Positions 916-19,441 of a DNA stretch of 64,000 nt are shown in pieces (within the stretch, counting starts at the first letter, position 1; every line of letters begins with the position of its first letter). Source of the DNA: Streptomyces sp. SLBN-118 (GTDB lineage: Bacteria > Actinomycetota > Actinomycetes > Streptomycetales > Streptomycetaceae). The translations under genes were made by a program, and so were the position numbers. The stretch lies in NCBI RefSeq assembly GCF_006715635.1, contig NZ_VFNP01000001.1, positions 2,418,001-2,482,000 of the forward strand. Direction: 5' to 3'. The notes beneath the pieces were generated by a model. The model was not told the origin of the DNA, ran no database searches, and saw only the letters and a list, made by a program, of their open reading frames with translations.

Positions 916-3591
916 TCAGCGCATCAGCACACCCGCGCCCTCCCCCGTCGCCTCGGTCGGCAGCGCCACCAAACCCAGATCGGCGCTGGTCGCGAGCAGC
1001 GGATGAGCAGGCAGGATGCGCACCGTATAGCCGAACGGGCCCGTGCGGTCCAGCGCGAGCGGGCCCTCGTAGACCCAGCGGCCCTCCAGGTCGGGGCCGC
1101 CTGTCGGCTTGAGCGGGAAGGTCTGGGCGTCGGCGATCGCGTCGTCGGAGTCGACGCGGCCGGCCACCGCCTGCACCTCCACGTCGTCCGGCTGGAGTTC
1201 GCCGAGTGCGACCCGTACTCGCAGCGCCAGCGTGGATCCCAGTTCGGCCGTTCCCCCTGCCGCCGACTGCTCCAGCGCCTCCACATGGTCGACGGCCACG
1301 TGCGGCCAGCTCACCCGCACCCGGCCCTTCCAGGACGCCAGCTCCCGAGCGGTCTCGGCGTTCAGGGACCGGTGGGCCCGGGCGGCCGGGGCGTACAGAC
1401 GCTCGACGTACTCCCGGACCATGCGGCCCGCGAGCACCTTGGGGCCGAGCGTGGTCAGCGTGCGCCGGACCATCTCGATCCAGCGCTGCGGCAGCCCGCC
1501 CGCGCCCCGGTCGTAGAAGCGGGGCGCCACCCGGTTCTCGATCAGCTCGTACAGCGCGCCCGCCTCCAGCTGGTCACGCCGGTCCTCGTCCGTCGCCGAG
1601 CCGTCGGCCGTCGGGATCGCCCAGCCGAAGTCCGGCTCGAACCACTCGTCCCACCAGCCGTCGAGTACGGACAGGTTGAGGCAGCCGTTGAGCGCGGCCT
1701 TCATTCCGCTGGTGCCGCACGCCTCCAGCGGCCGCAGCGGGTTGTTCAGCCAGACGTCGCAGCCCGGGTAGAGCTTCTGCGCCATCGCCATCCCGTAGTC
1801 GGGCAGGAAGACGATCCGGTGACGCACCCGCGGATCGTCGGCGAACCGCACCAGCTCCTGGACGAGCCGCTTGCCGCTGTCGTCCGCCGGATGCGCCTTG
1901 CCCGCGACGACGATCTGCACCGGCCTGGTCGGATGCAGCAGCAGCTCCATCAGCCGGTCGCGGTCGCGCAGCATGAGCGTGAGCCGTTTGTACGAGGGGA
2001 CCCGTCGGGCGAAGCCGATGGTGAGGACGTCGGGGTCGAGCACCCCGTCGATCCAGCCCAGCTCGGCCGCCCCCGCACCCCGCTGTCGCCAGGAGGCCCG
2101 CAGCCGCTCCCGTACCTCCAGGACCAGCTGTTCGCGCAGCTCACGGCGCAGCTCCCAGATGTCGGCGTCCGGGATGTCCGCGACGGCGTCCCAGCGCTGG
2201 GAGCCGCCGACGGACAGGACGTCCTCGGCACGACTGGTGCCGATCTGGCGCGCGCCGAGCCGGAACACCTCGGGCGCCACCCAGGTCGGCGCGTGCACGC
2301 CGTTGGTGACGGAGGTGATGGGCACCTCTTCGGCGTCGAAGCCGGGCCACAGCCCGGCGAACATGCCGCGGCTGACGGCCCCGTGGAGGGTGGACACACC
2401 GTTGGCGCGCTGGGCGAGCCGCAGGCCCATGACCGCCATGTTGAAGAGGTTGGGCTCGCCTCCCGGATAGGTCTCCATGCCGAGCTGGAGCACCTTCTCG
2501 ACCGGGACTCCGGGCAGCTCTCCGCGCTCCCCGAAGTGGCGGGCGACGAGTTCGCGGTCGAAGCGGTCGATCCCGGCGGGCACCGGCGTGTGGGTGGTGA
2601 ACACGGTTCCGGCACGCACCGCTTCGAGCGCGGCGTCGAAGTCGAGCCCCTGGCCGCCGCGTTCCTGGGGCTCTCCCAGTTCGCGGATGCGCTCCAGACC
2701 GAGGAAGCCGGCGTGTCCCTCGTTGGTGTGGAACACCTCGGGCGCGGGATGGCCGGTGAGGCGGCAGTAAGCCCGCACCGCCCGTACGCCCCCGATGCCC
2801 AGCAGCATCTCCTGGAGCAGCCGGTGCTCGCTGCCACCGCCGTAGAGCCGGTCGGTGACATCGCGCTCGCCGGGGCCGTTCTCCTCGACGTCCGAGTCGA
2901 GCATCAGCAGCGGTACGCGGCCGACCTGCGCCATCCAGATGTGCGCGCGCAGCGAGCGCCCGCCGGGCAGCGCGAGGGACACCAGGCAGGGTGTCCCGTC
3001 GGGCTCCCGCAGCAGGCTGACGGGCAGTTCGTTGGGGTCGAGCAGCGGATAGTGCTCCTGCTGCCAGCCGTCTCGGGAGAGGGACTGGCGGAAGTAGCCG
3101 TGGCGGTAGAGCAGCCCGACGCCGATCAGCGGCACACCGAGGTCGCTCGCGGCCTTGAGATGGTCGCCGGCCAGGATGCCCAGGCCGCCGGAGTACTGGG
3201 GCAGTGCCGCGGTGACGCCGAACTCGGGCGAGAAGTAGGCGACCGCTGCGGGGAATTCGGCTTCTTCGGGGGCATGGTCCCCGAGGGAGCGATTGTGTGC
3301 CTGGTACCACCTGCCACCGTGCAGGTAGTCGTCCAGGTCGTCGGCGACGGCGGCGAGCCGGCGCAGAAAGCGCCGGTCCCCGGCCAGTTCCGCCAGCCGG
3401 GCTGCGGACACTGATCCGAGCAGTCGTACGGGATCTCGTCCCGCCGCCTGCCAGCCGTCGGGGTCGACGGCCTGGAAGAGGTCACGGGTCTCGGTGTGCC
3501 AGGACCAGCGCAGATTGCGCGCCAGTTCACTGAGCGGGAGGAGTGGTTCGGGGAGGACGGGGCGGACGGTGAATCGACGAATGGCCTTCAC
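916..3591 (-). CDS. glgP: Alpha-glucan (maltodextrin/glycogen) phosphorylase, GT35
   Basis: The enzyme phosphorolyses alpha-1,4-glucan to glucose-1-phosphate using pyridoxal phosphate. The N-terminus carries the DUF3417 region seen in actinobacterial GlgP ([16 protein letters not shown], then NLRWSWH). The C-terminal half has the PLP-region motif [19 protein letters not shown] and a GWWDEW stretch. I chose the GTG at 3591 (protein VKAIRRF..., ~891 aa) because homologues start there and GGTGG lies a few bases upstream. The frame stays open to 3732, and a GTG at 3600 is the main alternative. It faces the metalloprotease across a terminator and lies 8 kb from the glgE operon, whose product it could degrade. 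Confidence 0.93.
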
Positions 3592-3752
3592 GGGTTCCAC
3601 CTTCGCAGGGGAGGTACGCATCCGAGGGGACGCACGACGGTGTGCGTCCTTTTCCGTCTCGACAGACGGTAGTGGTACCCCGCCCTCCTCAACCACGGCG
3701 CGCGCCGGTCCCATGGGCGGGCGCCGGTGCATTCAGCACGCCGGAGGGGTGT

Positions 3753-5039
3753 TCAGCGCGGCGAGCGAACCGCCAGGTGATAGGGAGAGCCCTGGTTGAC
3801 GGTCCCCGGGTCGAAGGCCCCGGTGGCCGCGTACCGGGCGGCGATCTCGGCGCGTTCCCACTGGGGGATCACCTCGTCGATGTCGGTGAAGCCGCCGGGG
3901 GCGCGCTCGTGGGCGAGGTTGATGACGATCTCGGGGCCGAGGTCGCGGTTCGCCCGCTGGAGTTCGGTCATCGCGGGCCTGCGTTCGGCCTCGTACGCGG
4001 CGAGCGCGTGTGCGGGGTCGCGGTGCAGGGCCATCGCGTGGCCGAGCGCGCGGGCGTCGACGACGGACTGGGTCGCGCCGTTGGATCCGATCGGGTACAT
4101 GGCGTGGGCCGCGTCGCCGATCAGCGTCGTACGGCCGACGGACCAGCGCTCCAGCGGTTCGCGGTCCACCATCGGGTACTCGAAGGCGCCTTCGGCGGCC
4201 CGTAGCACCTCAGGGACGCTGACGCCGTCGAAGTCCCAGCCCTCGTAGTGGTGCAGGAACTTCTCGACAGGGACCCTCCGGTTCCAGTCTCCGCGCGTAG
4301 CGCCGCCTACGGTGTCGGCGGGCATCGCGAGCGCCCAGTTGACCAGCACCTCGCCGCTGTCCTTGTCGGGCTCGGTCATCGGGTAGACCACGGCCTTCTG
4401 GAGGTCGTCGCCCGCGATCAGCATGAAGCTGCCGTCCTGGTGGGCGGGCATCCATGAGACACCGCGCCAGATGAGCATGCCGTTCCAGGGCGGCTCGCCC
4501 TCGCCCGGGTTGAGCGCGGCGCGCACCGTGGAGCGGATGCCGTCGGCGCCGATGAGGACGTCGGGTTCGAGGGAGGCCCTGCCGCGCCGGGCACCGTCGC
4601 GGTGTTCGAGCTGGACTCTGGGGCGGCAGTCGACAAGCGGTTCGAGGCCGGTGACTCTGACGCCGCCGACGATCGCGCCGGGGCCGAGCCGGGCGCGTAC
4701 CGCGTCGGCGAGGGCGCGGTGGAGTTCGCCGCGCTGTATGGAGAGCTGGGGCCAGTGGTAGCCGGCGCCGAGGCCGCGCGGCTCGCGGGAGATGAGGCTG
4801 CCGCTGCGGTGGTAGTAGCGCAGCTCCCGGGTGCGTACGGAGCACTCCTCCAGCCGGTCGAGCAGCCCGAGCGCGTCGAGTTCGCGCACCGCGTTGGGCA
4901 TGATGTTCAGCCCGGCGCCGGCCGGCCGCAGGTCGCGGACCGTCTCGACGACGGTGATCCGTTCGAATCCGGCGGCGTGCAGGGCGAGTGCCGCAGCGAG
5001 TCCGGCGATTCCACCGCCGGCGATCATGATGTGGGGCAT
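3753..5039 (-). CDS. FAD-dependent class A monooxygenase (PhzS/salicylate hydroxylase-like)
   Basis: A 428-aa flavoprotein hydroxylase that would use NAD(P)H and O2 to hydroxylate an aromatic substrate in the cytoplasm. The N-terminal Rossmann motif is GGGIAGLAAALALHAAG. A GADGIRSTVR motif follows at about residue 160-170, and the FAD-ribityl motif LIGDAAHAMYPIGSNGA lies near residue 315. The MYP-GxNGA form of that motif is typical of the PhzS-like branch. The ATG start follows GGAGG closely. It is the last gene of a leftward set, 19 bp after the PrnB-like gene, so the two are probably co-transcribed and act on the same metabolite. The substrate cannot be read from the sequence. Confidence 0.88.
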   Translation of the reverse strand: MPHIMIAGGGIAGLAAALALHAAGFERITVVETVRDLRPAGAGLNIMPNAVRELDALGLLDRLEECSVRTRELRYYHRSGSLISREPRGLGAGYHWPQLSIQRGELHRALADAVRARLGPGAIVGGVRVTGLEPLVDCRPRVQLEHRDGARRGRASLEPDVLIGADGIRSTVRAALNPGEGEPPWNGMLIWRGVSWMPAHQDGSFMLIAGDDLQKAVVYPMTEPDKDSGEVLVNWALAMPADTVGGATRGDWNRRVPVEKFLHHYEGWDFDGVSVPEVLRAAEGAFEYPMVDREPLERWSVGRTTLIGDAAHAMYPIGSNGATQSVVDARALGHAMALHRDPAHALAAYEAERRPAMTELQRANRDLGPEIVINLAHERAPGGFTDIDEVIPQWERAEIAARYAATGAFDPGTVNQGSPYHLAVRSPR

Positions 5040-5058: not shown

Positions 5059-6180
5059 TCAGGCGACGGGGGTGCGCGGCCGCTCGGTCGAACGGCGTAC
5101 GAGGGTCTCGTTGTCCCGGGTCAGATCGAGTACCGAGCGGAGCAGCTCGATGGGGGCTCCGCCGCTGCCCACGTCGTACAGCCGCACGTCCTCGCTGTAC
5201 GCCTTGCGGGCGAGGGTGAAGTGGCGGGCCCGGAAGGTCTTGAGGATGCGCAGCACGCGGGCGAGGGAGACGGCGGACGCGGCAAGCTGTGGCGGCAGCC
5301 GGTGGGCCGCCTCCCAGCTGATGGCGGCCGAGAGTTTGGAGACGGCGGAGGTGCCGGCCTTGTGCGCGGCGTAGTGGGCGCGCCAGGAAGGGAGGCTGTA
5401 GCGCACCGAGTCGTCGAGGAAGGCGTCGTAGGCGGGGTTGCTGCGGTCGCACTGCCACAGCGTCAGATCGACCAGCCAGAGCGGCACCTGGGCGGCGGCC
5501 GGGCCGAGGTAGTCGGTGCCCCCGACGTCGATCTCCTCGAAGTAGGAGCGCATCCGGGTGGCGAAGAAGACCGGCGAGACATTGGCGATGGTGAAGTCGA
5601 TGGAGTCGACCATGGACTGCACATGCTGGGCGGTGCGGTCGAGCGCGAGGGCGAAGCCCGGTTCGTAGGGCTCACAGCGGGCGAGTTGGGCGCAGGTGTC
5701 GAGCGCCGCCACCAGGCTGGGGAAGGCCATCCGGACCGCGTCCTGGAGATGGCTCTCCATGATGTCGCCGGTGTACATCCGCTGCCGGGCGCCGAGGGGA
5801 TTCCAAGCCGTGTAGTGGTGCACGGTGTCGCGCGGCACCATGTCGGTGCGCCGGCCCAGCTCTTCGAGCACCGGCAGGACTTCGGGCACCGCCGCAACGG
5901 GCTCGACGCCGTGCCGTTTGAGCGATCCGAGGAGGATGCCGAGGTCGCGCATCGCGGCGAGCGCGTCGGTGATGCCGAGCGCGGCGACCCGTTCGGGCTC
6001 GGGCACCAGGGTGCGCAGGGCGACGGTGAGCGCGGGCACATCGGCGTCGGCGTTCATCGCGGGCAGCGCTGCGAGCAGCGCGTCGGCGCCGAGCGGGTCG
6101 GCCGCCCGTATCTCGGCTATCCGGTAGCGCGGATCGCAGCGCAACAGGAGACCGGGCGCGACTAGGTCGTACAAGGTCAA
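5059..6180 (-). CDS. PrnB-like haem enzyme (monodechloroaminopyrrolnitrin synthase family, indoleamine-dioxygenase fold)
   Basis: It resembles PrnB of pyrrolnitrin biosynthesis, which rearranges the indole ring of 7-chloro-tryptophan and belongs to the IDO/TDO haem superfamily. Blocks shared with PrnB as I recall it are LGSLKRHGVEP, VGGTDYLGPAAAQVPL, TFRARHFTLARKAY (containing the histidine aligned with the PrnB haem ligand, about residue 320 here) and VGSGGAP. Length is 373 aa against ~361 for PrnB. The frame is open to a TTG at 6201, but GAGGGGGG lies 7 bases before the TTG at 6180, so I chose 6180. No halogenase or Rieske enzyme (PrnA/C/D) is nearby. The substrate is therefore probably not chlorotryptophan; tryptophan, tyrosine or a derivative is an inference. 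Confidence 0.82.
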   Translation of the reverse strand: MTLYDLVAPGLLLRCDPRYRIAEIRAADPLGADALLAALPAMNADADVPALTVALRTLVPEPERVAALGITDALAAMRDLGILLGSLKRHGVEPVAAVPEVLPVLEELGRRTDMVPRDTVHHYTAWNPLGARQRMYTGDIMESHLQDAVRMAFPSLVAALDTCAQLARCEPYEPGFALALDRTAQHVQSMVDSIDFTIANVSPVFFATRMRSYFEEIDVGGTDYLGPAAAQVPLWLVDLTLWQCDRSNPAYDAFLDDSVRYSLPSWRAHYAAHKAGTSAVSKLSAAISWEAAHRLPPQLAASAVSLARVLRILKTFRARHFTLARKAYSEDVRLYDVGSGGAPIELLRSVLDLTRDNETLVRRSTERPRTPVA

Positions 6181-6304
6181 CGGAATGCCCCCCTCGGGCA
6201 ACGTCGGTTCAGTGGGTGGGATGCGGCGCGTTTGCTCACGTCACGCCCTCACCGGTCGCTTTCGCCGCCTGCGTACGCCTACCCGCACGCACTCGCCGCA
6301 TTGG

Positions 6305-7720
6305 TCACTCCACGGGGCCGCCCACACGGCCTGGGCGCGGTGGCGCCGGGACGGGTCCGGGCAGGCGCAGTCGTACGCAGAGCAGGACGGCCAGTGCGGC
6401 GAACGCTGCGCCGGCCAGCAGCGCGGAGCGGAAGCCGGAGGTCTGGGCGGCGGCCGAGGAGCCGCCTTGCGCGGTGGCCACCGCCACCAGGACGGCAAGA
6501 CCGAGCACCGAGCCGAACTGCTGGCTGGTGTTGACGAGTCCGGAGGCGAGGCCGGTCTCCTCGGGCGCGGCCTCGGCGGTGGCGGCGACATTGGTGGTGA
6601 CCATGACCAGCGGCAGGGCGGCGCCGAGGACCAGGCTGGGTGCCAGGACCGTCGTGGCGAAGGTTCCGTCGGCGGACAGGGCGAGCGCCAGCCACACCAT
6701 GCCCGCGAGGAGCAGCCCGAAGCCGGCGGTCATGGTCGCTCTGAGCCCGATCCGGACGATGAGACGACCGGTCTGCGGGGCGACGGCGACGACCACCAGC
6801 GACAGTGGCAGCAGTCCGAGTCCGCCGGTCAGCGGGGAACGGTCGAGAACGCTCTGCAGATAGAGGCTGACCAGGAAGAACATCGGAAACAGCGCCATCT
6901 GGGCCAGTGCGCTGAGGATATTGGCGTCCCGCAGCGCTGGCCGCCGCAGCACGGCGGGCGGCACCAGAGGGCCAGGGACCCTCGACTCCAGTACGGCGAA
7001 GGCCGCGAGCAGGACCAGACCCGCACCGCCGGCCAGGAGGGTCCGTGTGCTGGTCCACCCGGACTCGCCCGCGCCGACGAGTGCGTACGCCACCAGCCCG
7101 AGGCCGCCGGTGGCCGTGATTGCTCCGCCGAGGTCGAAGCCGGGCCGTGCGCTGCGCGTCCCCCCGTCGAGAACGCGCAGTGCGAGCAGTCCTATGACCA
7201 GGGCGAGGAGCACATTGAGCCAGAAGGTGGAGCGCCAGCCGAGCAGATCGGTGAGCACTCCGCCGAGCACGGTGCCCAGCACCCCGCCCAGCCCGCCCAT
7301 CGCGGCGAAGGCGCCCAGCGCCTTGTGCCGTCCGGGCCCGTTCGGGAAGAGGTGGAGCAGCAGGGCGAACGCCGCGGCGGCGGCGAAGGCGGCCCCCGCT
7401 CCCTGCACGGAGCGCGCGGCGATCAGGGCGCCCGGTGTCGTGGCGAGAGCGCCGGCCGCGGATGCGGCGGCCAGCAGTCCCAGGCCGGCGAGGTAGAGCC
7501 GGCGGTGGCCGAGGAGATCGGCCAGGCGCCCGCCGAGCAGCAGCAGTCCGCCGAAGGTGATGAGGTAGCCGTTGGCCACCCAGGACAGCCCGGCCGAGCC
7601 GGAGCCGAGGTCGTCGCCGACCGACGGCAGGGCGACGTTGACGATGGCCGTGTCCGTGATCAGCAGCAGCTGGGTGGAGGCGAGCAGCCCGAGCGCGGCG
7701 CCCGGACGGGCCGAGGTCAC
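6305..7720 (-). CDS. MFS drug/metabolite exporter, DHA2 (14-TM) family
   Basis: A 471-aa integral membrane transporter that would export a small molecule by proton antiport. Near the start it has STQLLLITDTAIVNVALPSV, the DHA2 motif in TM1, and then a motif-A-like GGRLADLLGHRR loop. Many hydrophobic segments follow, enough for about 14 helices. The frame is open to 7831, but the GTG at 7720 overlaps the stop of the upstream HpaB-like gene by 4 bp (GTGA), which indicates translational coupling and fixes the start. Its place between two oxygenase genes suggests it exports, or gives resistance to, the pathway product. Confidence 0.88.
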   Translation of the reverse strand: MTSARPGAALGLLASTQLLLITDTAIVNVALPSVGDDLGSGSAGLSWVANGYLITFGGLLLLGGRLADLLGHRRLYLAGLGLLAAASAAGALATTPGALIAARSVQGAGAAFAAAAAFALLLHLFPNGPGRHKALGAFAAMGGLGGVLGTVLGGVLTDLLGWRSTFWLNVLLALVIGLLALRVLDGGTRSARPGFDLGGAITATGGLGLVAYALVGAGESGWTSTRTLLAGGAGLVLLAAFAVLESRVPGPLVPPAVLRRPALRDANILSALAQMALFPMFFLVSLYLQSVLDRSPLTGGLGLLPLSLVVVAVAPQTGRLIVRIGLRATMTAGFGLLLAGMVWLALALSADGTFATTVLAPSLVLGAALPLVMVTTNVAATAEAAPEETGLASGLVNTSQQFGSVLGLAVLVAVATAQGGSSAAAQTSGFRSALLAGAAFAALAVLLCVRLRLPGPVPAPPRPGRVGGPVE

Positions 7721-9183
7721 CGGCCGGTCCCCGGGCCCTGGTCCAGTCCGGGGCCCACGCTCTGGTCCAGTCCGTAACCGTCGAGACAGGCCTGGGCCAG
7801 TTCCTCGCAGCTGTCCGCGCCGCCCGCCCACGTCTGCATGGTCAGATAGACGTGCGGGGCGCCGTGGTAGAAGCGCTCGTACTGCTCGTGGCGTCCGGCG
7901 AATTCCGAACCGAGTGCGTCCCAGACGAGTTTGAGCAGCTTGACCCGGTCCTCGGCCGGGGTGCCGGGAGCGCGCAGATATTTCCTCAGGACCGGCCCGA
8001 GCTGCGGGTGCAGCAGATCCCCGCCGGAGGCCGGGAGCTGGATGACGCCGCCGCCCGCGAGCAGCTTGATCTCCTGGACCGCGCGCGGGTAGAGCTCACC
8101 GGCCATGATGCGCTGGGCGAAGGAGATCTCCCGGCCGGGCATGACGCCGCCGCGGCCGCCGTCGACCTGCTCGTGGCTCGCCTCGGCGGCCAGTACGAAC
8201 GCCTTGGCCTGGGCGACCATGCCGAGCAGGCGCCCGACCGACTGGGTGACGGCGGGCAGGCGGCAGGTGTTGTTGGCGCGTGTCAGCAGGATGGCGAGGC
8301 CGGTGAGGAATTCGAGCTTGGTCCAGAAGCGGGTGGCCGCCTGGTGGCTGAAGTTGAGATAGGCGGGGGTGTCCCACCACATCGCCGCGGTGGCCTCGGC
8401 ACTGCGGTAGGTCAGCACCCGCTCCCACGGTACGAAGACCTCGTCACAGACCAGCAGCGCGTCGTTCTCGTCGAAGCGCGAGGAGAGCGGGTTGTCGAAG
8501 ACGCTGCGGGCCTGTGCCTCGTACGAAGCACGCGAGTGGAGGGTCAGGCCCGGTGTGGCGACGGGTACCGAGAAGCACAGCGCGTGCTCCGTGTCCTCGG
8601 GCGCCAGTGGCTCGATCGTGCCGACGAGCACCTCGTCGGCGAAGACGGCCCCGCTGCCGATCGTCTTGGCGCCGCTCACCACGATCCCGTCGTCCTTCTC
8701 GGCGACGACCCGCACCGCCAGGTCGTCCTCTCCCTCGCCGGACTGCGGGTTGGTGAGGGTGAAGGCCGCGTACAGATCGTCTTCGGCGAGTCTGCGGTGG
8801 TACGCGAGGGCGTTGTCGGCGCCGTCGAAGGAGTCGGTGGTGAAGACCTGGGGCAGGGCGGCGAATCCCGCGGCTCCGCCCGCCATGTAGTCGGGCGTAC
8901 GCCCGAGGAAGCCGAAGCTCGACTCGGTCCACACCTTGTAGGCGTGCCGCCGGGCGACCAGGTCGTCGTAGGAGCGCGGCACGGCGAAGGCGCGGTGGAT
9001 GCCGCCGGAGGTGAGGGCAGGGGTGTGCCCGGAGTCGTGCGCCAGGTCGTAGAGGTGCGCGACCGACGCCGCGGTGTTGCGGAAGGCGGCATGGCGGGTG
9101 ACGTCCTTGACCCGTTCGCCGTCGAGCCACACCTCACGCCCGTCACACAGCGATGCGAGGTATTCCTGGCCGGACCTGGTCAA
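7717..9183 (-). CDS. 4-hydroxyphenylacetate 3-hydroxylase (HpaB) family flavin-dependent oxygenase
   Basis: This 488-aa protein matches the oxygenase component of two-component FADH2 monooxygenases that ortho-hydroxylate phenols such as 4-hydroxyphenylacetate or tyrosine. The N-terminus has the family pattern (GREVWLDGERVKDVT, then FRNTAASVAHLYDL). RTPDYM and DEVFVPWERVLTY are further family blocks. The start is TTG at 9183 with TGAGGAGAG just upstream. It is the first gene of the leftward set and its stop overlaps the MFS start. The partner flavin reductase (HpaC) is not in the window, so reduced FAD must come from elsewhere. Other HpaB-family members hydroxylate tyrosine or tryptophan derivatives in antibiotic pathways. 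Confidence 0.87.
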   Translation of the reverse strand: MTRSGQEYLASLCDGREVWLDGERVKDVTRHAAFRNTAASVAHLYDLAHDSGHTPALTSGGIHRAFAVPRSYDDLVARRHAYKVWTESSFGFLGRTPDYMAGGAAGFAALPQVFTTDSFDGADNALAYHRRLAEDDLYAAFTLTNPQSGEGEDDLAVRVVAEKDDGIVVSGAKTIGSGAVFADEVLVGTIEPLAPEDTEHALCFSVPVATPGLTLHSRASYEAQARSVFDNPLSSRFDENDALLVCDEVFVPWERVLTYRSAEATAAMWWDTPAYLNFSHQAATRFWTKLEFLTGLAILLTRANNTCRLPAVTQSVGRLLGMVAQAKAFVLAAEASHEQVDGGRGGVMPGREISFAQRIMAGELYPRAVQEIKLLAGGGVIQLPASGGDLLHPQLGPVLRKYLRAPGTPAEDRVKLLKLVWDALGSEFAGRHEQYERFYHGAPHVYLTMQTWAGGADSCEELAQACLDGYGLDQSVGPGLDQGPGTGR

Positions 9184-9286
9184 CGTCTCTCCTCAAACGG
9201 AATGTCCCCCGACACAGCCGAGCCTCGCTCCAGCCATGGACAGTGGGCAATGAACGACCGTCCAGCGGTGATTAAGAACCGGCCAG

Positions 9287-10255
9287 TCATGCAGCTGAGG
9301 AGCCTCCCGATCTGTACTCTCCCGGCGTCATGCCGTACCACTTGCGGAAGGCCAGGTGAAAGCCGACCGAGCTCTGGTAGCCGACACGTTCCGGGACGGC
9401 CGACTGGGGCAGCGAAGTCTCGCCAAGCAGCCGGGCGGCCTCTTGCATCCGCCGCCCCGTCAGATGCCGGGCGGGCGCCTCGCCCACCAGCTCGCGGAAG
9501 GCCGCTGTGAACGCCGAGCGGGACATGCCGACCTCCCGGGCGAGCGACTCGATGGTCCAGGGCTCGGCGAAGCGTGTCGCGATGATGACCATGGCCCGGC
9601 TGATACCGGGATGGCGCAGAACCGGCAGTGCGGAGGGATTGCGGGCCAGTTCGCGCAGCAGCGGCCGCAGCGCGAGCACCAGCGCCATTTCGAAGGCGCG
9701 CAGCGTGATCAGCCGGTCGCCGGGGCCGACGGGACGGTCGGTGGCGGCGAGCAGCCGCAGTGTGTCGCGCAGCAGCGGCTCCCTGTCCACCTGGGAGTGG
9801 TCGAGCACCAGCGCCCAGGGCAGCGCCGTGTAGAGGTGGGTGGCCACGGAGGCGTCGTAGTGCAGCCCCGCGCAGAGCAGCCGGCTCTCTGGCCCTTCGC
9901 CCTCGATCCTGATCTCACCGGAGGTGCCGGGTGCCCGCTCGGGCAGCACGGTGCCGAGCGCGACGCCCCGCCGCTCGGGCCGGTCCGCGAGCCGGTGCGC
10001 GGCGCCGGTGGGGAACACGGCGAGGTCGCCCTCGTGCAGCTCGATCGGGGTCTGGCCCTCGGCCGTGACCCAGCAGCCGCCCTCGGTGATGAAGTGCAGT
10101 ACGGCGCAGCTCTGTTCCGCGTCGCCCTCGATGGCCCAGGGGGCGCTGACATGCCAGCGGCTGTCGAAGACCCCGGTCAGACGTAAGGGCTTGAGCAGCT
10201 CGCTGAGGAGGTCGTCCCCTTCGCGCTCCGTCGGTTCCGTCTCCGTCGGTTCCAT
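9287..10255 (-). CDS. AraC-family transcriptional regulator with N-terminal cupin
   Basis: A 322-aa regulator. Residues ~20-190 form a cupin_6-type sensor (FDSRWHVSAPWAI, VLHFITEGGCWV, VFPTGAAHRLADRP). The C-terminal ~100 residues hold the two AraC helix-turn-helix motifs (REVGMSRSAFTAAFREL, then VGYQSSVGFHLAFRKWYGMTPGEYR). The frame is open to 10375. I chose ATG 10255 because GAAGGA lies 7 bases upstream and homologues begin near here. It is 103 bp upstream of the HpaB-like gene on the same strand and divergent from the NmrA-like gene. AraC/cupin_6 regulators commonly control a divergent oxidoreductase, so the NmrA-like gene is the likeliest target, with the oxygenase operon as a second possibility. 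Confidence 0.9.
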   Translation of the reverse strand: MEPTETEPTEREGDDLLSELLKPLRLTGVFDSRWHVSAPWAIEGDAEQSCAVLHFITEGGCWVTAEGQTPIELHEGDLAVFPTGAAHRLADRPERRGVALGTVLPERAPGTSGEIRIEGEGPESRLLCAGLHYDASVATHLYTALPWALVLDHSQVDREPLLRDTLRLLAATDRPVGPGDRLITLRAFEMALVLALRPLLRELARNPSALPVLRHPGISRAMVIIATRFAEPWTIESLAREVGMSRSAFTAAFRELVGEAPARHLTGRRMQEAARLLGETSLPQSAVPERVGYQSSVGFHLAFRKWYGMTPGEYRSGGSSAA

Positions 10256-10373
10256 TGGACGATCCTTCAACCCCCGCCCCGGTTTGTTAATTGATCGGCC
10301 GAAGCTGCCGAAGCGAGCCTGGAAGAGCCGTTCACGGCAGCAGCCACACCCTATCGAAGGGCTCTTCAGACTC
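10256..10373. promoter_or_regulatory. Divergent promoter region between AraC regulator and NmrA-like oxidoreductase
   Basis: These 118 bp separate two outward-facing genes and must hold both promoters. A short AT-rich tract (TTTGTTAATTGAT, about 10284-10296) stands out from the GC-rich surroundings and is the natural place for a promoter or an AraC site. I could not fix -35/-10 boxes. Confidence 0.5.
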
Positions 10374-11303
10374 ATGTCCGATCACATTCCGATGCGTGTA
10401 GCGGTCGTGGGGGCGACCGGGTTCCAAGGAGGTGCGACAGCCCGTCTGCTGGCCGAGCGGAAGCACCGCGTGCGCACACTGAGCCGCAAGCCCGAGGCCG
10501 ATCGCCCGGAGCTTCCGGGAGTTTCCGTCGCGAGCGGCGACCTCGGCCGGTACGAGGACGTACGCCTGCTCTTCGAAGGGGCCACACACGCGGCGGTGGT
10601 GATGCCGCTGGTGTACCAGGCCGAGAAGGTCATGCGGTACGCCCAGCACATAGCGAAGGCGGCACGCGAGGCCGGGGTGGGGCGGCTGGTCTACAACGCC
10701 AACACCCGTGTCCCCGACCGGAGCACGAATGTGGTGGCCTTCGAGACCCGCCGGCTCGCCGAGACGGTGTTGCGCGAGAGTCTCGCCCACAGCGGCGTGG
10801 AGCTGGTGGTCGTGCGCCCGCCGGTCTATCTGGACAACCTCTTCAGCCCGTGGAACGGCCCGGCCCTGGTGAACGAGGGGGTGCTCGCCTACCCGCTGCC
10901 CGCCGACATCCCGGCGGCGTGGATCTCGCACCGGGACCTGGCGGAGGCGGTGTACGCCGCGCTCACGGTGGACGGTGTTGCGGGCCGCACCTTCGACATC
11001 GGCGGCGCGCAGACACTGACGGGCGACGAGCTCGCGACGGCCTTCGGGCAGGGCCTGGGGCGCGCGATCCGCTATGTGCCCCTGGAACCGGGCATCTTCG
11101 AGCAGAGCCTTGCCCAGATCCTGGGCACGGAGTCTGCGGCCGGCGTGTCGGGGATCTACCACTACATGGCCGCGGGCCTGGAGCCCGGACTGATGGCGGG
11201 CGACGAGGGCGAGTCGGCTGCGGCACTGTCGCTGAAGCCGGCGCCGGTGGACGAGTGGGTGACACGGCAGCCGTGGCAGATGTGGTCGGGAGAGCTGTCA
11301 TGA
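10374..11303 (+). CDS. NmrA-like NAD(P)-binding oxidoreductase (atypical SDR)
   Basis: A 309-aa cytoplasmic protein with an N-terminal nucleotide-binding motif (VAVVGATGFQGGATARLL) and the RTLSRKPE segment that commonly selects NADP(H). The body has the NmrA/HSCARG layout: HAAVVMPLVYQ, VVVRPPVYLDNLF, WISHRDLAEAVYAALT and GRTFDIGGAQTLTGDEL. No canonical SDR Tyr-x-x-x-Lys site is evident, so it may be a redox sensor or a reductase. The start is ATG 10374, with AAGGG about 12 bases upstream. The longer open frame to 9924 is antisense to the araC-type gene and is rejected. It is transcribed divergently from the AraC regulator. Confidence 0.88.
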   Translation: MSDHIPMRVAVVGATGFQGGATARLLAERKHRVRTLSRKPEADRPELPGVSVASGDLGRYEDVRLLFEGATHAAVVMPLVYQAEKVMRYAQHIAKAAREAGVGRLVYNANTRVPDRSTNVVAFETRRLAETVLRESLAHSGVELVVVRPPVYLDNLFSPWNGPALVNEGVLAYPLPADIPAAWISHRDLAEAVYAALTVDGVAGRTFDIGGAQTLTGDELATAFGQGLGRAIRYVPLEPGIFEQSLAQILGTESAAGVSGIYHYMAAGLEPGLMAGDEGESAAALSLKPAPVDEWVTRQPWQMWSGELS

Positions 11304-11736: not shown

Positions 11737-13848
11737 ATGCCCGCAGCCCGCCAGCCGTCGACTGAGCAGCTACAAAGAACCAGCAAACCTCGCACACGTG
11801 CACAACGCGCTCAATCCGCCCTGCCCGCACAGCCCTCAGGTGATCCCATGATCGGTCGTATCCCCGTCCTGGACGTCCGTCCCCAAGTCGACTGCGGTAG
11901 GAGGCACGCAAAAGCGGTGACCGGTGAGACCTTCCAGGTCACCGCCACCGTCTTCCGGGAGGGTCATGACGCTGTCGCCGCCAATGTCGTCCTGCGCGAC
12001 CCCACCGGACGTCCCGGCCCCTGGACTCCCATGCGTGAGCTCGCCCCCGGCACCGACCGCTGGGGCGCCGACGTCACCCCGGACGCCGAGGGGCGCTGGA
12101 CCTTCGCCGTCGAGGCGTGGAGCGACCCTGTAGCCACCTGGCGGCACACCGCCGGGGTCAAGATTCCCGCCGGTATCGACACCGCGCTGGTGCTGGCCGA
12201 GGGCGCCGAGCTGTACGAGCGGGCCGCCGCCGGGGTTCCCAAGCGCGACGGACGCGAGGCCGTGCTCGCCGCCGTCGACGCCCTGCGTGACGAGGAGCGC
12301 CCCGCCGCCGCCCGGCTCGCCGCCGCCCTCGCCCCCGACGCCACCGCCGCGCTCGATCGCCACCCGCTGCGCGAACTGGTCACCGCCTCCCGGCCGTTGG
12401 CCCTGATCGTCGAGCGGCAGCGCGCCCTGTTCGGCTCCTGGTACGAGCTCTTCCCGCGCTCCGAGGGCGCGATCGTCAAGGAGGGCGCGCCGCCCGTCTC
12501 CGGCACCTTCCGCACCGCCGCCGAGCGGCTTCCGGCCGTCGCCGCGATGGGCTTCGACGTCGTCTATCTGCCGCCCGTCCACCCCATCGGCACCACCTAC
12601 CGCAAGGGCCCGAACAACACCCTCTCCCCCGGTGCCCACGATGTCGGCGTCCCCTGGGCCATCGGCTCCCCCGACGGGGGCCATGACGCGCTCCACCCCG
12701 ACCTCGGCACGTTCGAGGACTTCGACCATTTCGTGCAGACTGCGCGCGACCTGCGCATGGAGGTGGCGCTGGACTTCGCGCTCCAGTGCTCGCCCGACCA
12801 CCCCTGGGTGGAGAAGCACCCCGAGTGGTTCCACCACCGCGCCGACGGCACGATCGCCTACGCCGAGAATCCGCCGAAGAAGTACCAGGACATCTACCCG
12901 ATCGCCTTCGAGGCGGACATGCGCGGTCTGGTCAACGAGACGCTGCGTGTGCTGCGCCTCTGGATGGGCCACGGTGTACGGATCTTCCGCGTGGACAACC
13001 CGCACACCAAGCCCGTCATCTTCTGGGAGAAGGTGATCGCGGACATCAACCGCAGCGACCCCGATGTGATTTTCCTGGCCGAGGCGTTCACCCGTCCGGC
13101 GATGATGCACACCCTCGCCGCGATCGGCTTTCAGCAGTCGTACACGTACTTCACCTGGCGTAACACCAAGCAGGAACTCACCGAGTACCTCACCGAGCTC
13201 TCCGGCGAAGCCGCCTCGTACATGCGTCCCAATTTCTTCGTGAACACCCCCGACATCCTGCACGCCTATCTCCAGCACGGCGGGCGCCCGGCGTTCGAGG
13301 TGCGTGCGGTGCTGGCCGCGACGATGTCGCCGTCCTGGGGCATGTACGCAGGATACGAATGGTGCGAAAACGCCCCCCTGAGGGACGGCAGCGAGGAGTA
13401 TCTGAACTCCGAGAAGTACCAACTGCGGCCGCGGGACTGGGAGTCGGCGGAACGCGAGGGCCGCACCATCACGCCCCTGATCACCGCCCTCAACCGGATC
13501 AGGCGCCGGCACCCCGCCCTGCAGCAGCTGCGGAACATCCACTTCCACCCCACCGACAACGAGGCGGTGATCGCGTACTCGAAAACGGCCGAGGGCGCTT
13601 CGGGTCCGAACACCGTGCTCGTCGTCGCCAACCTCGACCCCCACCACACCCAGGAGGCCACGGTCTCGTTGGACATGCCGCACCTCGGCCTCGACTGGCA
13701 CGAGAGCGCACCGGTGCGCGACGAGCTCACCGGCGAGACCTATCACTGGGGCAGAGCCACCTATGTGCGCCTAGAGCCGGGCGTCACGCCCGCGCACATC
13801 GTCGTTCTGCGACCGTCCCCGCCGATCGGAGGGTCACCCACATCATGA
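11737..13848 (+). CDS. glgE: Alpha-1,4-glucan:maltose-1-phosphate maltosyltransferase
   Basis: GlgE (GH13_3) transfers maltosyl units from maltose-1-phosphate to alpha-glucan. The 703-aa sequence closely follows Streptomyces GlgE. An N-terminal domain ([25 protein letters not shown]) precedes the barrel. The GH13 motifs are [10 protein letters not shown] (nucleophile Asp), [12 protein letters not shown] (acid Glu) and [31 protein letters not shown] and [18 protein letters not shown] are GlgE hallmarks. I chose ATG 11737 with AGGAG five bases upstream; ATG 11848 (MIGRIPV) is a weaker alternative. It is the first gene of an operon; its stop overlaps the treS start (ATGA). Confidence 0.96.
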
Positions 13849-15551
13849 TCGTCAATGAGCCCGTCCACGACCTGTTCGAGGACACGCCGGCCAAGGACCG
13901 AGACCCCGACTGGTTCAAGCGGGCCGTCTTCTACGAAGTCCTGGTGCGTTCCTTCCAGGACAGCAACGGCGACGGCATCGGCGACCTCAAGGGCATCACC
14001 GCCAAACTCGACTATCTGCAGTGGCTGGGGGTCGACTGCCTCTGGCTCCCGCCGTTCTTCAAGTCCCCTCTGCGGGACGGCGGTTACGACGTCTCCGACT
14101 ACACGGCGGTACTCCCCGACTTCGGCGACCTCGCCGACTTCGTGGAGTTCGTCGACGCCGCGCACCAGCGCGGCATGCGCGTCATCATCGACTTCGTCAT
14201 GAACCACACCAGCGACCAGCACCCGTGGTTCCAGGAGTCCCGCAGCGATCCCGAGGGGCCCTACGGCGACTACTACGTCTGGGCCGACGACGACAAGCAG
14301 TTCCAGGACGCCAGGATCATCTTCGTCGACACCGAGACGTCCAACTGGACCTTCGATCCGGTGCGCAAGCAGTACTACTGGCACCGCTTCTTCTCCCACC
14401 AGCCCGATCTCAACTACGAGAACGCTGCGGTGCAGGAGGAGATCATCTCGGCGCTGCGCTTCTGGCTGGACCTGGGCATCGACGGTTTCCGTCTCGACGC
14501 CGTGCCGTATCTGTACCAGCAGGAGGGCACCAACTGCGAGAACCTCCCCGCCACCCATTCCTTCCTCAAGCGGGTGCGCAAGGAGATCGACGCCCATTAC
14601 CCCGACACCGTGCTGCTGGCGGAGGCCAACCAGTGGCCCGAGGATGTCGTCGACTACTTCGGCGACTTCCCGGCCGGCGGCGACGAGTGCCATATGGCCT
14701 TCCACTTCCCGGTGATGCCGCGCATCTTCATGGCGGTACGGCGCGAGTCCCGCTACCCCGTCTCGGAAATCCTGTCCAAGACCCCGGCGATCCCGAAGAA
14801 CTGCCAGTGGGGCATCTTCCTGCGCAACCACGACGAGCTGACCCTCGAAATGGTCACGGACGAAGAGCGCGACTACATGTACGCGGAATACGCCAAGGAT
14901 CCGCGAATGCGCGCCAACATCGGCATCCGGCGCAGGCTCGCTCCCCTGCTCGACAACGACCGCAATCAGATCGAGCTGTTCACGGCGCTGCTGCTCTCGC
15001 TGCCCGGATCGCCGATCCTGTACTACGGCGACGAGATCGGGATGGGCGACAACATCTGGCTGGGCGACCGCGACGCCGTGCGCACCCCGATGCAGTGGAC
15101 CCCCGACCGCAACGCGGGCTTCTCCTCCTGCGACCCCGGCCGGCTGTATCTGCCCACGATCATGGATCCGGTCTACGGCTACCAGGTCACCAATGTCGAG
15201 GCGTCGATGGCCTCGCCGTCCTCGCTGCTGCACTGGACCCGCCGGATGATCGAGATCCGCAAGCAGAACCGCGCCTTCGGCCTCGGCTCGTACACCGAAC
15301 TGCCGTCGTCGAACCCGGCCGTGCTCGCCTTCACCCGGGAGTACAAGGACGATCTCGTGCTCTGCGTGCACAACTTCTCCCGGTTCGCGCAGCCCACCGA
15401 GCTCGATCTTCGGGCGTTCAGCGGCCGGCACCCGGTGGAGCTGATCGGTGGCGTGCGTTTTCCGGCCATCGGTCAGTGGCCCTATCTGCTGACTCTCGCA
15501 GGCCACGGCTTCTACTGGTTCCGGCTGCGCAAGGAAGCGGCCGCCACCTGA
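13845..15551 (+). CDS. treS: Trehalose synthase (maltose glucosylmutase), TreS
   Basis: TreS interconverts trehalose and maltose and feeds maltose to the kinase encoded next. The 568-aa protein is GH13_16: [20 protein letters not shown] at the start, [14 protein letters not shown] (region I), [17 protein letters not shown] (nucleophile Asp), [12 protein letters not shown] (acid Glu) and [12 protein letters not shown] (third Asp). ATG 13845 overlaps the glgE stop by 4 bp and has GGAGGG about 11 bases upstream. No fused maltokinase domain is present; that function is the separate next gene. It acts in the cytoplasm in the GlgE pathway. Confidence 0.96.
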
Positions 15552-15577
15552 CACACAGGTAACGAGAGGTGCCTCCC

Positions 15578-15601
15578 GCGGGGCGGTTTCCCCCGCCCCG
15601 C
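15578..15601 (+). terminator. Hairpin in the treS-mak intergenic space
   Basis: A perfect 9-bp stem (GCGGGGCGG with its complement) and a 6-base loop lie 26 bp after the treS stop. The 164-bp gap is the only real break in an otherwise tight operon. The hairpin may attenuate or end transcripts, so mak may have its own promoter here. Confidence 0.5.
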
Positions 15602-15715
15602 ACCGGGCACTCTCCTCCTCATCCCCGCGCGCCGCCGGACAGCCACAGCTGCAATCCGGGACACTCTGCGCATACAGCGCCATTGGAGTGCATCTCGGGG
15701 AAAGGACGCGATGCC

Positions 15716-17104
15716 ATGTCGGAGGCTGCATCCACCCGGACCCCCGTCGCTCTTCTCCCGTCCCTAGCGCCCCTGCTGCTCGCCTGGCTGCCGAGACAGC
15801 GCTGGTTCGCGGGCAAGGGCCATCCCCTCACCGGCTTCTCGCTCGTCTCCGCGACCGAACTGCTGCCGCTGGACTCCGCGACCGGTCCGGGGCTGCTGCA
15901 TCTGCTCGTACGCGTCCAGCAGACCGGCCTTCCCGCCCCGTCGTCGCAGGACTGCTACCAACTCCTCCTCGGTGTGCGCAGGACGCTGCCACCGCACCTC
16001 GCGCCCGCGTTGATCGGCCATGTGACCGAGGGCCCGCTCACCGGGCGGACGGTGTACGAGGGGCTGCACGACCCGCGCCTGGCCGAGCTGATCCTGGAGC
16101 GGCTGCGCACGCCCGGTGCGCTGGGGCCGCTGCGCTTCGACCGCTTCGAGGCGGCCGGGAGGATCCCCGGCGGGCTCACCGCGCGCCCCCTGGAGGCCGA
16201 GCAGTCCAACTCCTCGCTGGTGTACGGCGACGCGTACATCCTCAAGCTCTTCCGCCGGGTCCACCCCGGCTCCAACCCCGATCTGGAGCTGCCGCTCGCG
16301 CTCGCCCGCGCCGGATGCGGCCGGGTCCCCGCGCCCGTCGCCTGGTTCGAGGCCACCGCGCCCGAGCCGTACACCCTCGGCGTGCTGCAGCCCTTCCTGC
16401 ACGGCTCGCGCGACGGCTGGCTGCTCGCGCTCGAATCGCTGGCCGACGGGGGGACCTTCATTGAGGAGGCCCGCGCGCTCGGCCGGGTCACCGCCGAGGT
16501 GCACACGGCGCTGGCGAAGGAGCTGCCCACCGTGATGCTGCGCCGGCCGCAGGCCGAGCATCTGGCGGAGGCCATGACGGCGCGTCTGGACGCGGCCGCG
16601 CAGGCGGTGCCCGCGCTGCTGCCGTACGTTCCACGGCTGCGTGCCGCCTTCGACGCGATCGCCGCGCTCGGCAGGCGCGGCTGCGCCTGGCGGGCCCAGC
16701 GCGTCCACGGCGACCTCCATCTCGGGCAGACCCTGCGTGGCGGCGGCTCCCACAGCGACACTCACTGGTCGGTCATCGACTTCGAGGGCGAGCCGGCACG
16801 CCCGCTCGGCGAACGCCGCAGGCCACAGCCCACGGTGATAGATGTCGCCGGCATGCTGCGCTCGTTCGACTACGCCGCCCGCACCCACCGCCCGTGGAAC
16901 CCGGCCTGGGCGGAACGCTGCCGTGCGGCCTACTGCGACGGCTATGCCGAGACCGCGGGCGCCGATCCCCGCACCGAACCCGAGCTGTTGCGCGCCTATG
17001 AGACGGACAAGGCCGTGTACGAGGTCGTCTACGAGGCCCGGCACCGCCCCGACTGGCTTCCGGTGCCGATGGCGGCGATCGACCGCCTGGCCGCCACCAA
17101 CTGA
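15716..17104 (+). CDS. mak: Maltokinase (Pep2/Mak)
   Basis: ATP-dependent maltose kinase making maltose-1-phosphate, the GlgE donor. It has 462 aa and an aminoglycoside-phosphotransferase-like fold. The N-terminal cap has LLAWLPRQRWFAGKGHPL. Central blocks are RPLEAEQSNSSLVYGDAYIL and KLFRRVHPGSNPDLEL. The catalytic loop is RVHGDLHLGQTLR and the metal-binding motif is VIDFEGEPARPLGERR. I chose ATG 15716 (MSEAAST...) with AAAGGA upstream; the longer frame to 15569 is not typical of the family. It follows treS after 164 bp and precedes glgB by 21 bp. Confidence 0.94.
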   Translation: MSEAASTRTPVALLPSLAPLLLAWLPRQRWFAGKGHPLTGFSLVSATELLPLDSATGPGLLHLLVRVQQTGLPAPSSQDCYQLLLGVRRTLPPHLAPALIGHVTEGPLTGRTVYEGLHDPRLAELILERLRTPGALGPLRFDRFEAAGRIPGGLTARPLEAEQSNSSLVYGDAYILKLFRRVHPGSNPDLELPLALARAGCGRVPAPVAWFEATAPEPYTLGVLQPFLHGSRDGWLLALESLADGGTFIEEARALGRVTAEVHTALAKELPTVMLRRPQAEHLAEAMTARLDAAAQAVPALLPYVPRLRAAFDAIAALGRRGCAWRAQRVHGDLHLGQTLRGGGSHSDTHWSVIDFEGEPARPLGERRRPQPTVIDVAGMLRSFDYAARTHRPWNPAWAERCRAAYCDGYAETAGADPRTEPELLRAYETDKAVYEVVYEARHRPDWLPVPMAAIDRLAATN

Positions 17105-17125
17105 TCCGCCGAGGAGGCAGACCCC

Positions 17126-19441
17126 GTGACCGCCCGACCCCCGTCCCGTAATTCCTCCGACCCCCAAAGGCCCCGGCAGGCGGCTGACGCCGGGCCCCCC
17201 AAGCAGACGGACGCGCCACAGGCGCGGGCGGACGGCAGTCATGGCGTCCGGGCCGCCCATCCACTCCCGGACGGGGACCGGGAGCGGCTGCTGACCGGCT
17301 CCCACCACGATCCGCACTCCCTGCTGGGGGCGCACTCGGTCCGGGGCGGTGTCGAGCTGCGGGTGCTGCGTCCGTTCGCGCGGTCGGTGACCGTGCTCGC
17401 GAAGGGGCTGCGGGCAAAGCTGCACGAGGACGGTGACGGCTTCTTCTCGGGTGTCCTGCCGCTGCGCACCGTCCCGGAGTACCAGCTTCTCGTCGTCTAC
17501 GACGACGCGACCGGGATCGAGGTGCAGGACCCGTACCGCTTCCTGCCCGCGCTCGGCGAGCTCGATCTGCATCTGATCGGCGAGGGGCGGCACGAGGAGC
17601 TGTGGAAGGCGCTCGGAGCGCACCCCATGGCACACCAGCAGGCGACGGGCACCCGGTTCACCGTGTGGGCGCCCAATGCCCGCGGGGTGCGGGTGGTGGG
17701 TGACTTCAACTACTGGGACGGCACCGGGTATCCGATGCGTTCGCTGGGCTCCTCCGGCGTGTGGGAGCTGTTCCTGCCCGGCGTCGGCGAGGGCGCCCTC
17801 TACAAGTTCGACATCACCCGCCCGGACGGCTCGCACACCCTGCGGGCCGATCCGATGGCACGGCGCAGCGAGGTGCCCCCCGCCACCGCGTCGATCGTCA
17901 CCGAGTCCCACCATGTGTGGCACGACCAGGAGTGGATGGCGCACCGCGCGGACCGGCCGGTGCACGAGGCGCCCTTCTCCGTCTACGAAGTGCATCTCCC
18001 CTCCTGGCGGCCCGGACTCACCTACCGCCAGCTCGCCGCACAACTACCCGCGTACGTCCAGGACTTGGGCTTCACCCACGTGGAGCTGATGCCGGTCGCC
18101 GAGCATCCCTTCGGCGGCTCCTGGGGCTATCAGGTCACCGGCTTCTACGCACCGACCGCCCGGATGGGCACACCTGACGACTTCCGCCATCTGGTGGACG
18201 CCCTGCACCGGGCCGGGATCGGCGTACTGGTCGACTGGGTGCCCGCGCACTTCCCCAAGGACGACTGGGCGCTGGCGGAGTTCGACGGCCGCTCGCTGTA
18301 CGAACACGAGGACCCGGCGCGTGCCGCGCACCCCGACTGGGGCACCCTCGAATTCGACTACGGCCGCAAGGAGGTACGCAACTTCCTGGTCGCCAACGCC
18401 ACGTACTGGTGCGAGGAGTTCCACATCGACGGGCTGCGGGTCGACGCGGTCGCCTCGATGCTCTATCTCGACTACTCCCGCGAGCACAGCGAGTGGACGC
18501 CCAACGTGCACGGCGGCCGGGAGAACCTGGACGCGGTCGCCTTCCTCCAGGAGATGAACGCCACCGTCTACCGGCGCTGCCCCGGTGTCGTCACCATCGC
18601 CGAGGAGTCCACGGCCTGGGACGGCGTCACCCGCGCCACGCACCATGTGGGCCCGGGCGGTTTCGGCGGCCTCGGCTTCGGCCTGAAGTGGAACATGGGC
18701 TGGATGCACGACTCGCTGGGCTATGTCGAGCACGAGCCGGTGCACCGCAAGTTCCACCACAACGAGATGACGTTCTCGATGGTGTACGCGTACAGCGAGA
18801 ACTACGTCCTGCCGATCTCGCACGACGAGGTGGTCCACGGCAAGCAGGCCCTGGTGAGCAAGATGCCCGGCGACTGGTGGCAGCAGCGCGCGAATCACCG
18901 CGCCTATCTGGGCTTCATGTGGGCGCATCCCGGTAAACAACTCCTCTTCATGGGCCAGGAGTTCGCCCAGGGAGCGGAGTGGTCGGAGGGCCACGGCCCC
19001 GACTGGTGGCTGCTGGATCCCTCCTACGCCGCGGAGGCGGACCACCGCGGCGTACGGGACCTCGTGCGCGACCTGAACACGGTCTACGCGGCCACCCCAG
19101 CCCTGTGGCAGCAGGACACGGACCCCGTCGGCTTCGCCTGGGTGGACGGCGACGCCGCCGAGGACAATGTCTTCGCCTTTCTGCGCTTCGACGCCACGGG
19201 CGCGCCGCTGCTCGCCGTCAGCAACTTCTCTCCGGTGGTACGCCACGAGTACCGCATCGGTGTTCCGGAGTCGGTCCAGGCGTGGACGGAGGTCCTCAAC
19301 ACGGACGCGGATCGCTACGGCGGCAGCGATGTGCTCAACCCCGACCCGCTGAAGCCGGAGTCGTTCCCCTGGCACGGCCGGCCGGTGAGCATCCAGCTCA
19401 CGCTGCCGCCACTGGCTACCGTGTGGCTGCGGCCGGTCTGA
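17126..19441 (+). CDS. glgB: 1,4-alpha-glucan branching enzyme
   Basis: GlgB introduces alpha-1,6 branches into the glucan made by GlgE. The 771-aa protein has two N-terminal CBM48-like segments ([10 protein letters not shown]... and [20 protein letters not shown]). The GH13_9 barrel follows: [34 protein letters not shown] (nucleophile Asp), [15 protein letters not shown] (acid Glu) and [15 protein letters not shown]. The first ~55 residues are a low-complexity extension. GTG 17126 has GAGGAGG eight bases upstream. Last gene of the operon; its 3' end overlaps the convergent helD-like gene by 26 bp. Confidence 0.96.

Follow-up and report, generated by a model that had tools for sequence, protein, structure and literature searches.

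A conserved Streptomyces gene set around a PrnB-like haem enzyme, with a probable role in converting tryptophan into an undescribed exported product

PrnB, the haem enzyme of the pyrrolnitrin pathway, has been known for almost three decades, but its activity has yet to be obtained with the purified protein, according to the available part of PMC11791213, which also describes solved PrnB structures that bind tryptophan and acceptance of L-tryptophan by PrnB. The paenidepsin clusters contain PdnC, a PrnB homologue outside pyrrolnitrin pathways whose peptide-synthetase cluster also encodes an AraC regulator, with no HpaB or PhzS partner described in the accessible text of PMC13036774. Free 3-(2-aminophenyl)pyrrole, the halogen-free phenylpyrrole expected from PrnB-type chemistry on tryptophan, was isolated from Rapidithrix thailandica, and no pyrrolnitrin-related intermediates were seen; this report of 3-(2-aminophenyl)pyrrole and marinoquinoline chemistry concerns compounds, and no genes are described in the part available (PMC2630848). 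Here, a 64-kb stretch of Streptomyces sp. SLBN-118 (the window, C1:2418001-2482000 of a 7.79-Mb genome labelled G000; other G and L numbers are comparison genomes and loci) was found to encode a PrnB-like protein in an operon with HpaB-type and PhzS-like oxygenases, an exporter, and an AraC-family regulator. This conserved gene set probably turns tryptophan into an undescribed product for export, both substrate and export being predicted. The genes are, in order of transcription and followed by a divergent neighbour:

9287-10255, minus strand: AraC-family regulator (Cupin_6 and HTH_18; PF12852, E 6e-37; PF12833, E 4e-20)
7717-9183, minus strand: HpaB-family FADH2-dependent oxygenase (PF11794 and PF03241)
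6305-7720, minus strand: major facilitator superfamily (MFS) exporter of the DHA2 type, LmrA/TcmA/EmrB-like (PF07690, E 1e-43; TIGR00711, 190 bits)
5059-6201, minus strand: PrnB-like protein, a putative haem enzyme with a His ligand, assigned to the PrnB/IDO/TDO group (start codon TTG, either at 6201 or at 6180; PF08933, E 4e-38)
3753-5039, minus strand: PhzS-like single-component flavin adenine dinucleotide (FAD) monooxygenase (best PDB chains 2rgj/3c96, E 1e-80)
10392-11303, plus strand: NmrA-like NAD(P)-binding protein, divergent from araC (PF05368, E 2e-26)

The five parts named in the original prediction (PrnB-like, HpaB, PhzS-like, DHA2 exporter, and AraC) were all recovered on the minus strand by profile or PDB matches. 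The interval it gave, 5059-9183, holds the PrnB-like, exporter, and HpaB genes and omits the PhzS-like, AraC, and divergent NmrA-like genes. The hpaB and exporter genes are joined by a GTGA overlap, and the phzS-like gene starts 19 bp downstream of the prnB-like gene. The exporter score against TIGR00711 is below the cut-off of 230 bits. The araC start was placed at the second ATG of an open reading frame (ORF) that reaches 10375. Long plus-strand ORFs across the operon (for example, 6185-7777) were set aside as shadow frames of DNA rich in guanine and cytosine, in which nothing was recognised by eye.

The PrnB-like protein scored 131.5 bits against PF08933 (cut-off, 27), and its only PDB matches below an E value of 1e-10 were PrnB proteins, namely, 2v7i from Pseudomonas (PfPrnB; E 4e-62, 37% identity) and 9dfg from a Flavobacteriales bacterium (FbPrnB; E 3e-53, 34% identity), over 342 aligned positions. 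H327 aligned with residue 313 of PfPrnB, which we take to be the axial haem ligand His313; S346 aligned with PfPrnB residue 332 and the loop Ser of FbPrnB (Ser319), and Y130 aligned with PfPrnB Val117 and FbPrnB Tyr104. FbPrnB was numbered with an offset of 20, which places Ser319, Gly210, Gly211, and Tyr104 on the correct letters of the printed chain. The haem-ligand His that had been expected near residue 320 corresponds by alignment to H327, accompanied by the loop Ser S346 and by Y130, and these three residues were invariant in 37/37 aligned homologues. In FbPrnB, the substrate carboxylate is held by Ser319, Gly210, Gly211, and a haem propionate (PMC11791213, available part). The two glycine positions are Ala236 and Ala237 in the window protein, and PfPrnB differs there too; the carboxylate may be contacted at these positions through the backbone.

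The protein thus resembles the described PrnB enzymes in Pfam family, identity (34 to 37%), axial His, loop Ser, and the Tyr of FbPrnB. It differs from PrnB of the pyrrolnitrin pathway in its operon partners, with no PrnA or PrnC halogenase or Rieske oxygenase PrnD adjacent, and in its phylogenetic position. In a tree of 39 rows, 31 actinobacterial rows, including that of the window, formed one clade (100/99). PfPrnB grouped beside it with a protein from a cyanobacterium (98/92), and five rows of distant Streptomyces proteins were placed outside. The outer branching order is unsure because long branches meet, as the tree program warns for PfPrnB with the cyanobacterial row and for FbPrnB with the distant rows.

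Conservation was assessed across 392 genomes that sample the genus evenly out of a larger group. A PrnB match (E <= 1e-10) occurred in 50 of them, and a closer relative (at least 54% identity) was present in 38, among which G218 has only PrnB residues 222 to 380 and G015 has PrnB in two pieces. HpaB (at least 65% identity) lay on the same contig within 4.2 kb of prnB in 36 of the 38, the misses being G291 (an 89-residue HpaB remnant) and G218 (most of the operon lost), and a PhzS relative lay within 0.7 kb of prnB in all except G041 (37/38). No HpaB at E <= 1e-110 and at least 60% identity was found in the 354 other genomes, three of which have a relative of 40 to 44% identity (36/38 versus 0/354; Fisher test, 6e-49, a value that ignores shared ancestry). 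The co-occurrence of PrnB-like and HpaB proteins, whose absence from other genomes would have refuted the original prediction, is thus conserved: dozens of loci share a single chromosomal position, and a longer arrangement exists as well. Chance neighbourhood was ruled out by the co-occurrence, the two genomic contexts, and partial copies at the same site. Over seven pairs, ratios of nonsynonymous to synonymous substitution rates were 0.23 to 0.31 for prnB, 0.20 to 0.27 for hpaB, 0.27 to 0.35 for phzS, and 0.15 to 0.20 for glgP; prnB, hpaB, and phzS are under purifying selection.

Outside the 38 genomes, PhzS relatives (E <= 1e-100) were found in G119 (73% identity) and four more (51 to 54%). 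Because three of these five, G017, G164, and G238 (L097 to L099; PrnB identity, 42 to 44%), keep prnB and phzS 12 to 79 bp apart without HpaB, the prnB-phzS pair is suggested to be the core of the set. The prnB copy of L097 carries one internal stop. The remaining nine PrnB matches (27 to 46% identity) had neither an HpaB nor a PhzS partner at the cuts used. One prnB-relative record (P0115) is labelled S. venezuelae.

The chromosomal site of the window operon is bounded by two glg genes:

916-3732, minus strand: glgP-type phosphorylase gene, one flank of the operon
11737-13848, plus strand: glgE, the other flank

Beyond the operon, glgE, an alpha-amylase-family gene, and glgB, all of glucan metabolism, occupy 11737-19441 on the plus strand. 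The 65 loci fetched comprised 49 compact loci at the glgP-glgE site, 7 extended loci, and 9 that were neither; glgP is present in 48 of the 49 compact loci, and L051 ends before it. Across the 48 compact loci with a glgP neighbour, H327 and S346 are conserved in 47 and Y130 in 48, and all three residues are unchanged in the 7 extended loci. Of the compact loci, 39 exceed 20 kb; these contain araC (39), nmrA (39), phzS (38), hpaB (37, including a remnant in L065), and the exporter gene (32). The glgP-glgE gap was viewed in 11 other genomes, two of which (G119 and G218) were picked for partial sets and retain the PhzS-like gene without HpaB, G218 holding in addition the 3' part of prnB. Six of the other gaps measure 0.24 to 0.63 kb between matched stretches, and three measure 1.7 to 6.1 kb. 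The compact set would be an old insertion with repeated loss.

The extended loci (L079 to L083, L087, and L088) come from five Streptomyces, one Kitasatospora, and one Plantactinospora. All seven contain araC, a second phzS-like gene, hpaB, the exporter gene, nmrA (a conserved member of both cluster types), a stand-alone ketosynthase gene, prnB, and phzS, as well as a DsbA-like gene, trpC, trpD, and a mocR-type gene. Genes for trpG and trpE were present in six of the seven and a 3-deoxy-D-arabino-heptulosonate 7-phosphate (DAHP) synthase gene in five; the loci without these genes stop there, L082 ending before trpG and L079 just after trpE. A berberine-bridge-type oxidase was found in five (not L081 or L087). 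Copies of trpD over the cut-off numbered 2, 2, 2, and 3 in four extended genomes tested, each with one copy within 6 kb of prnB, and 1 each in three compact genomes. Because the cluster genes cover the route that starts with DAHP synthase and leads by way of anthranilate to indole-glycerol phosphate, tryptophan is proposed as the substrate, and the earlier guess of an aromatic amino acid is narrowed to tryptophan by the trpC, trpD, trpE, trpG, and DAHP synthase genes and the extra trpD copies. The ketosynthase of all seven extended loci (L079 8353-9789 and counterparts) is of the polyketide synthase type with Gln at the active-site Cys (D-x-x-Q-x-S); it is presumably KSQ-like and possibly a decarboxylase. 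In Paractinoplanes pyxinae (L091), trpA and an adjoining PALP-family gene, by position trpB, lie about 3 to 5 kb from the prnB gene.

A full-length tryptophan halogenase was not found in G000, where the PF04820 search gave only two 25-bit partial matches spanning 61 and 35 of 458 positions; the original prediction's statement that no halogenase is in reach therefore holds genome-wide by this search, and chlorination by a halogenase elsewhere in G000 was rejected. Among six other genomes tested, strong PF04820 matches occurred in G030, G200, and G277, on contigs other than that of prnB. Neither prnC nor prnD was found among the genes adjacent to the operon, and the pyrrolnitrin-cluster set (PrnA and PrnC halogenases with PrnD) is absent, the neighbours belonging to other families. 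These results point to unchlorinated tryptophan as the likely substrate.

Two operator-like elements lie upstream of the operon genes:

9248-9286, minus strand: element upstream of hpaB, with half-sites at 9272-9286 and 9248-9265, about 21 bp apart
10255-10294, plus strand: element between araC and nmrA, with half-site TGGACGrTCsTTmA, abutting the chosen araC start

The half-site TGGACGrTCsTTmA is common to both, and a similar GGAyrATysTTAA stands beside araC in all seven extended loci (by eye). The region upstream of hpaB was taken from 36 of the 39 longer compact loci (L046 and L076 are without hpaB, and araC is much farther away in L056). Mismatches to the first element did not exceed 8 of 39 positions in the window and in 35/36 loci (20 in L047), compared with 15 in the best of 740 shuffled controls, which were made for this element only; the second had at most 4 of 40 mismatches in 46/46 loci, including the window. 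The loci compared are related by descent. A pair of half-sites with a spacing of about 21 bp is what an AraC protein would be expected to recognise. The conserved elements suggest that AraC controls the operon through binding at both.

For TtHpaB, the catalytic site is given as Arg100-Tyr104-His142, with His142 deprotonating the phenol (PMC10537072, available part; compare PMC8342789). Alignment to PDB 2yyg placed these positions at R95, Y99, and F141 of the window HpaB. Phe replaces the catalytic His in all 51 HpaB relatives (44/44 compact and 7/7 extended), while Arg is kept in 51/51 and Tyr in 40/51, with Cys in the other 11. The NCBIfam equivalog cut-offs of HpaB-1 and HpaB-2 were unmet (293 versus 885 bits and 277 versus 480 bits). 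Because R95 and Y99 are present but F141 stands in place of His, the window protein is probably an HpaB-type oxygenase and not a 4-hydroxyphenylacetate hydroxylase, and a plain hydroxylase of that kind was left unsupported by the scores and the absent His. Compared with HpaB (4-hydroxyphenylacetate 3-monooxygenase), the protein has both HpaB domains and the shared Arg and Tyr but differs in the His-to-Phe replacement, the scores below cut-off, and the lack of HpaC in the operon.

The PhzS-like protein matched PDB chains 2rgj/3c96 with 275 bits over query residues 4 to 367; we take these chains to be PhzS, the PDB name shown being "Flavin-containing monooxygenase." It was also over the cut-off of NCBIfam PRK07538 ("hypothetical protein"). 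PhzS is its best PDB match, but the window gene is paired with prnB, and the neighbouring genes that were scanned within the 64 kb (glgP, prnB, and the other operon members) include no phenazine genes.

Taken together, the operon is read as tryptophan-using, biosynthetic, and AraC controlled, with a probability of about 0.75. A first product of 3-(2-aminophenyl)pyrrole, later hydroxylated and exported, is a more tentative proposal, held at somewhat under even odds. The PrnB-like enzyme would bind L-tryptophan in the manner of PrnB and rearrange it to 3-(2-aminophenyl)pyrrole, which the PhzS-like and HpaB-like flavin enzymes would hydroxylate; the NmrA-like protein may reduce or isomerise a quinoid or imine form, the DHA2 carrier would export the product, and AraC would act at the two upstream sites.

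Several points weigh against this account. HpaB enzymes usually need a phenol, which 3-(2-aminophenyl)pyrrole does not have, so the order of the proposed steps is tentative, and the operon is without a flavin reductase gene. The PrnB reaction is not yet reproduced with purified enzyme (PMC11791213, available part), and the related haem enzyme Luz15 is reported to hydroxylate tryptophan instead (cited in the accessible part of PMC13036774). Halogenase-family matches of 180 to 217 bits occur on other contigs in G200 and G277, two of four extended genomes in which they were sought. Within the DNA fetched, trp genes were found in 0/49 compact loci. The exporter gene is absent from 7 of the 39 longer compact loci, 2 of which are also without HpaB and another of which, L065, retains only an 89-residue HpaB remnant; L060 is without PhzS. 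Because some longer compact loci are without them, the exporter, HpaB, and PhzS may be dispensable.

The foremost rival, considered unlikely, is a hydroxytryptophan route, in which the PrnB-like enzyme would hydroxylate the indole of L-tryptophan, HpaB would add a neighbouring hydroxyl to the resulting phenol, PhzS would oxidise or decarboxylate the intermediate, and a dihydroxyindole or quinone would be exported. Haem-dependent hydroxytryptophan enzymes are reportedly the subject of Shi 2023. The action of HpaB enzymes on phenols (PMC10537072, available part) fits such a route, as do the tryptophan 5-hydroxylase Luz15 and the role in tryptophan hydroxylation proposed for PdnC in paenidepsins; however, PdnC and Luz15 fall in different clades, and the role of PdnC is only proposed (PMC13036774, accessible part), and the window HpaB and its 51 relatives have Phe at the place of the phenol-deprotonating His.

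Within the tryptophan-using biosynthetic reading, a more speculative and rather doubtful version holds that PrnB and the PhzS-like flavoprotein form a two-enzyme module converting unchlorinated tryptophan to a hydroxylated phenylpyrrole, in which the flavoprotein would either deliver the oxidant or draw the product away. If true, the missing partner of PrnB activity would be the neighbouring gene, halogen-free phenylpyrroles would be made widely in Streptomyces, and some actinobacteria would extend the phenylpyrrole family with tryptophan-supply genes and a decarboxylase of the KSQ-like kind.

A catabolic or detoxifying operon, in which HpaB, AraC, and the MFS carrier would break down an imported aromatic or indole compound, as in 4-hydroxyphenylacetate pathways, is improbable. 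Its combination of AraC, HpaB, and MFS genes resembles hpa gene sets, and RclR-like AraC proteins and NmrA proteins are often stress genes, but no ring-cleavage family was found among the window proteins scanned (sets of 8 and 10, plus NmrA), and the best matches of the carrier are DHA2-type drug exporters. Because the longer clusters add tryptophan-making genes, the opposite of breakdown, synthesis is favoured. A pyrrolnitrin-type pathway with its halogenase elsewhere in the genome is consistent with the exclusively PrnB matches below an E value of 1e-10 in the PDB and the halogenase-family matches elsewhere in G030, G200, and G277 but is highly improbable, given the two partial PF04820 matches in G000, the separate contigs of the strong matches, and the lack of adjacent prnC or prnD.

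Other prnB-like genes occur in different settings. A distant PrnB-like clade in Streptomyces (L101 to L108) has 27 to 37% identity; in six of its eight loci (L101 to L106), the prnB-like gene is followed by one for a 358- to 381-residue protein that contains YPSRINAMALDSSKIVP or something close to it, and HAD- and NUDIX-like genes were seen by eye near some of the eight. The prnB-like genes of L085, L086, L089 to L094, and L096, from Actinopolyspora, Streptomyces, Streptoalloteichus, Kitasatospora, Paractinoplanes, and Cylindrospermum, are without HpaB or PhzS relatives in the fetched DNA, and a methyltransferase-like gene adjoins the prnB-like gene in L085, L093, and L094 (by eye). Elsewhere in the window, 50111-54589 (minus strand) encodes a 1,492-residue polymorphic-toxin-type protein with PT-HINT and Ntox27 domains.

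No published cluster with PrnB, HpaB, and PhzS was found among the matches listed from titles and abstracts of open-licence literature, the original prediction knew of no described cluster of this composition, and the available parts of PMC6769897 and PMC12633357 contain nothing on it. By these counts, about a tenth of the sampled genomes (38/392 with the closer PrnB, 36 of them also with HpaB) likely encode a metabolite that is so far undescribed. The large number of natural PrnB relatives that are kept next to these flavin enzymes and an upstream element in common, in Streptomyces that can be cultured, would offer a handle on what PrnB needs.

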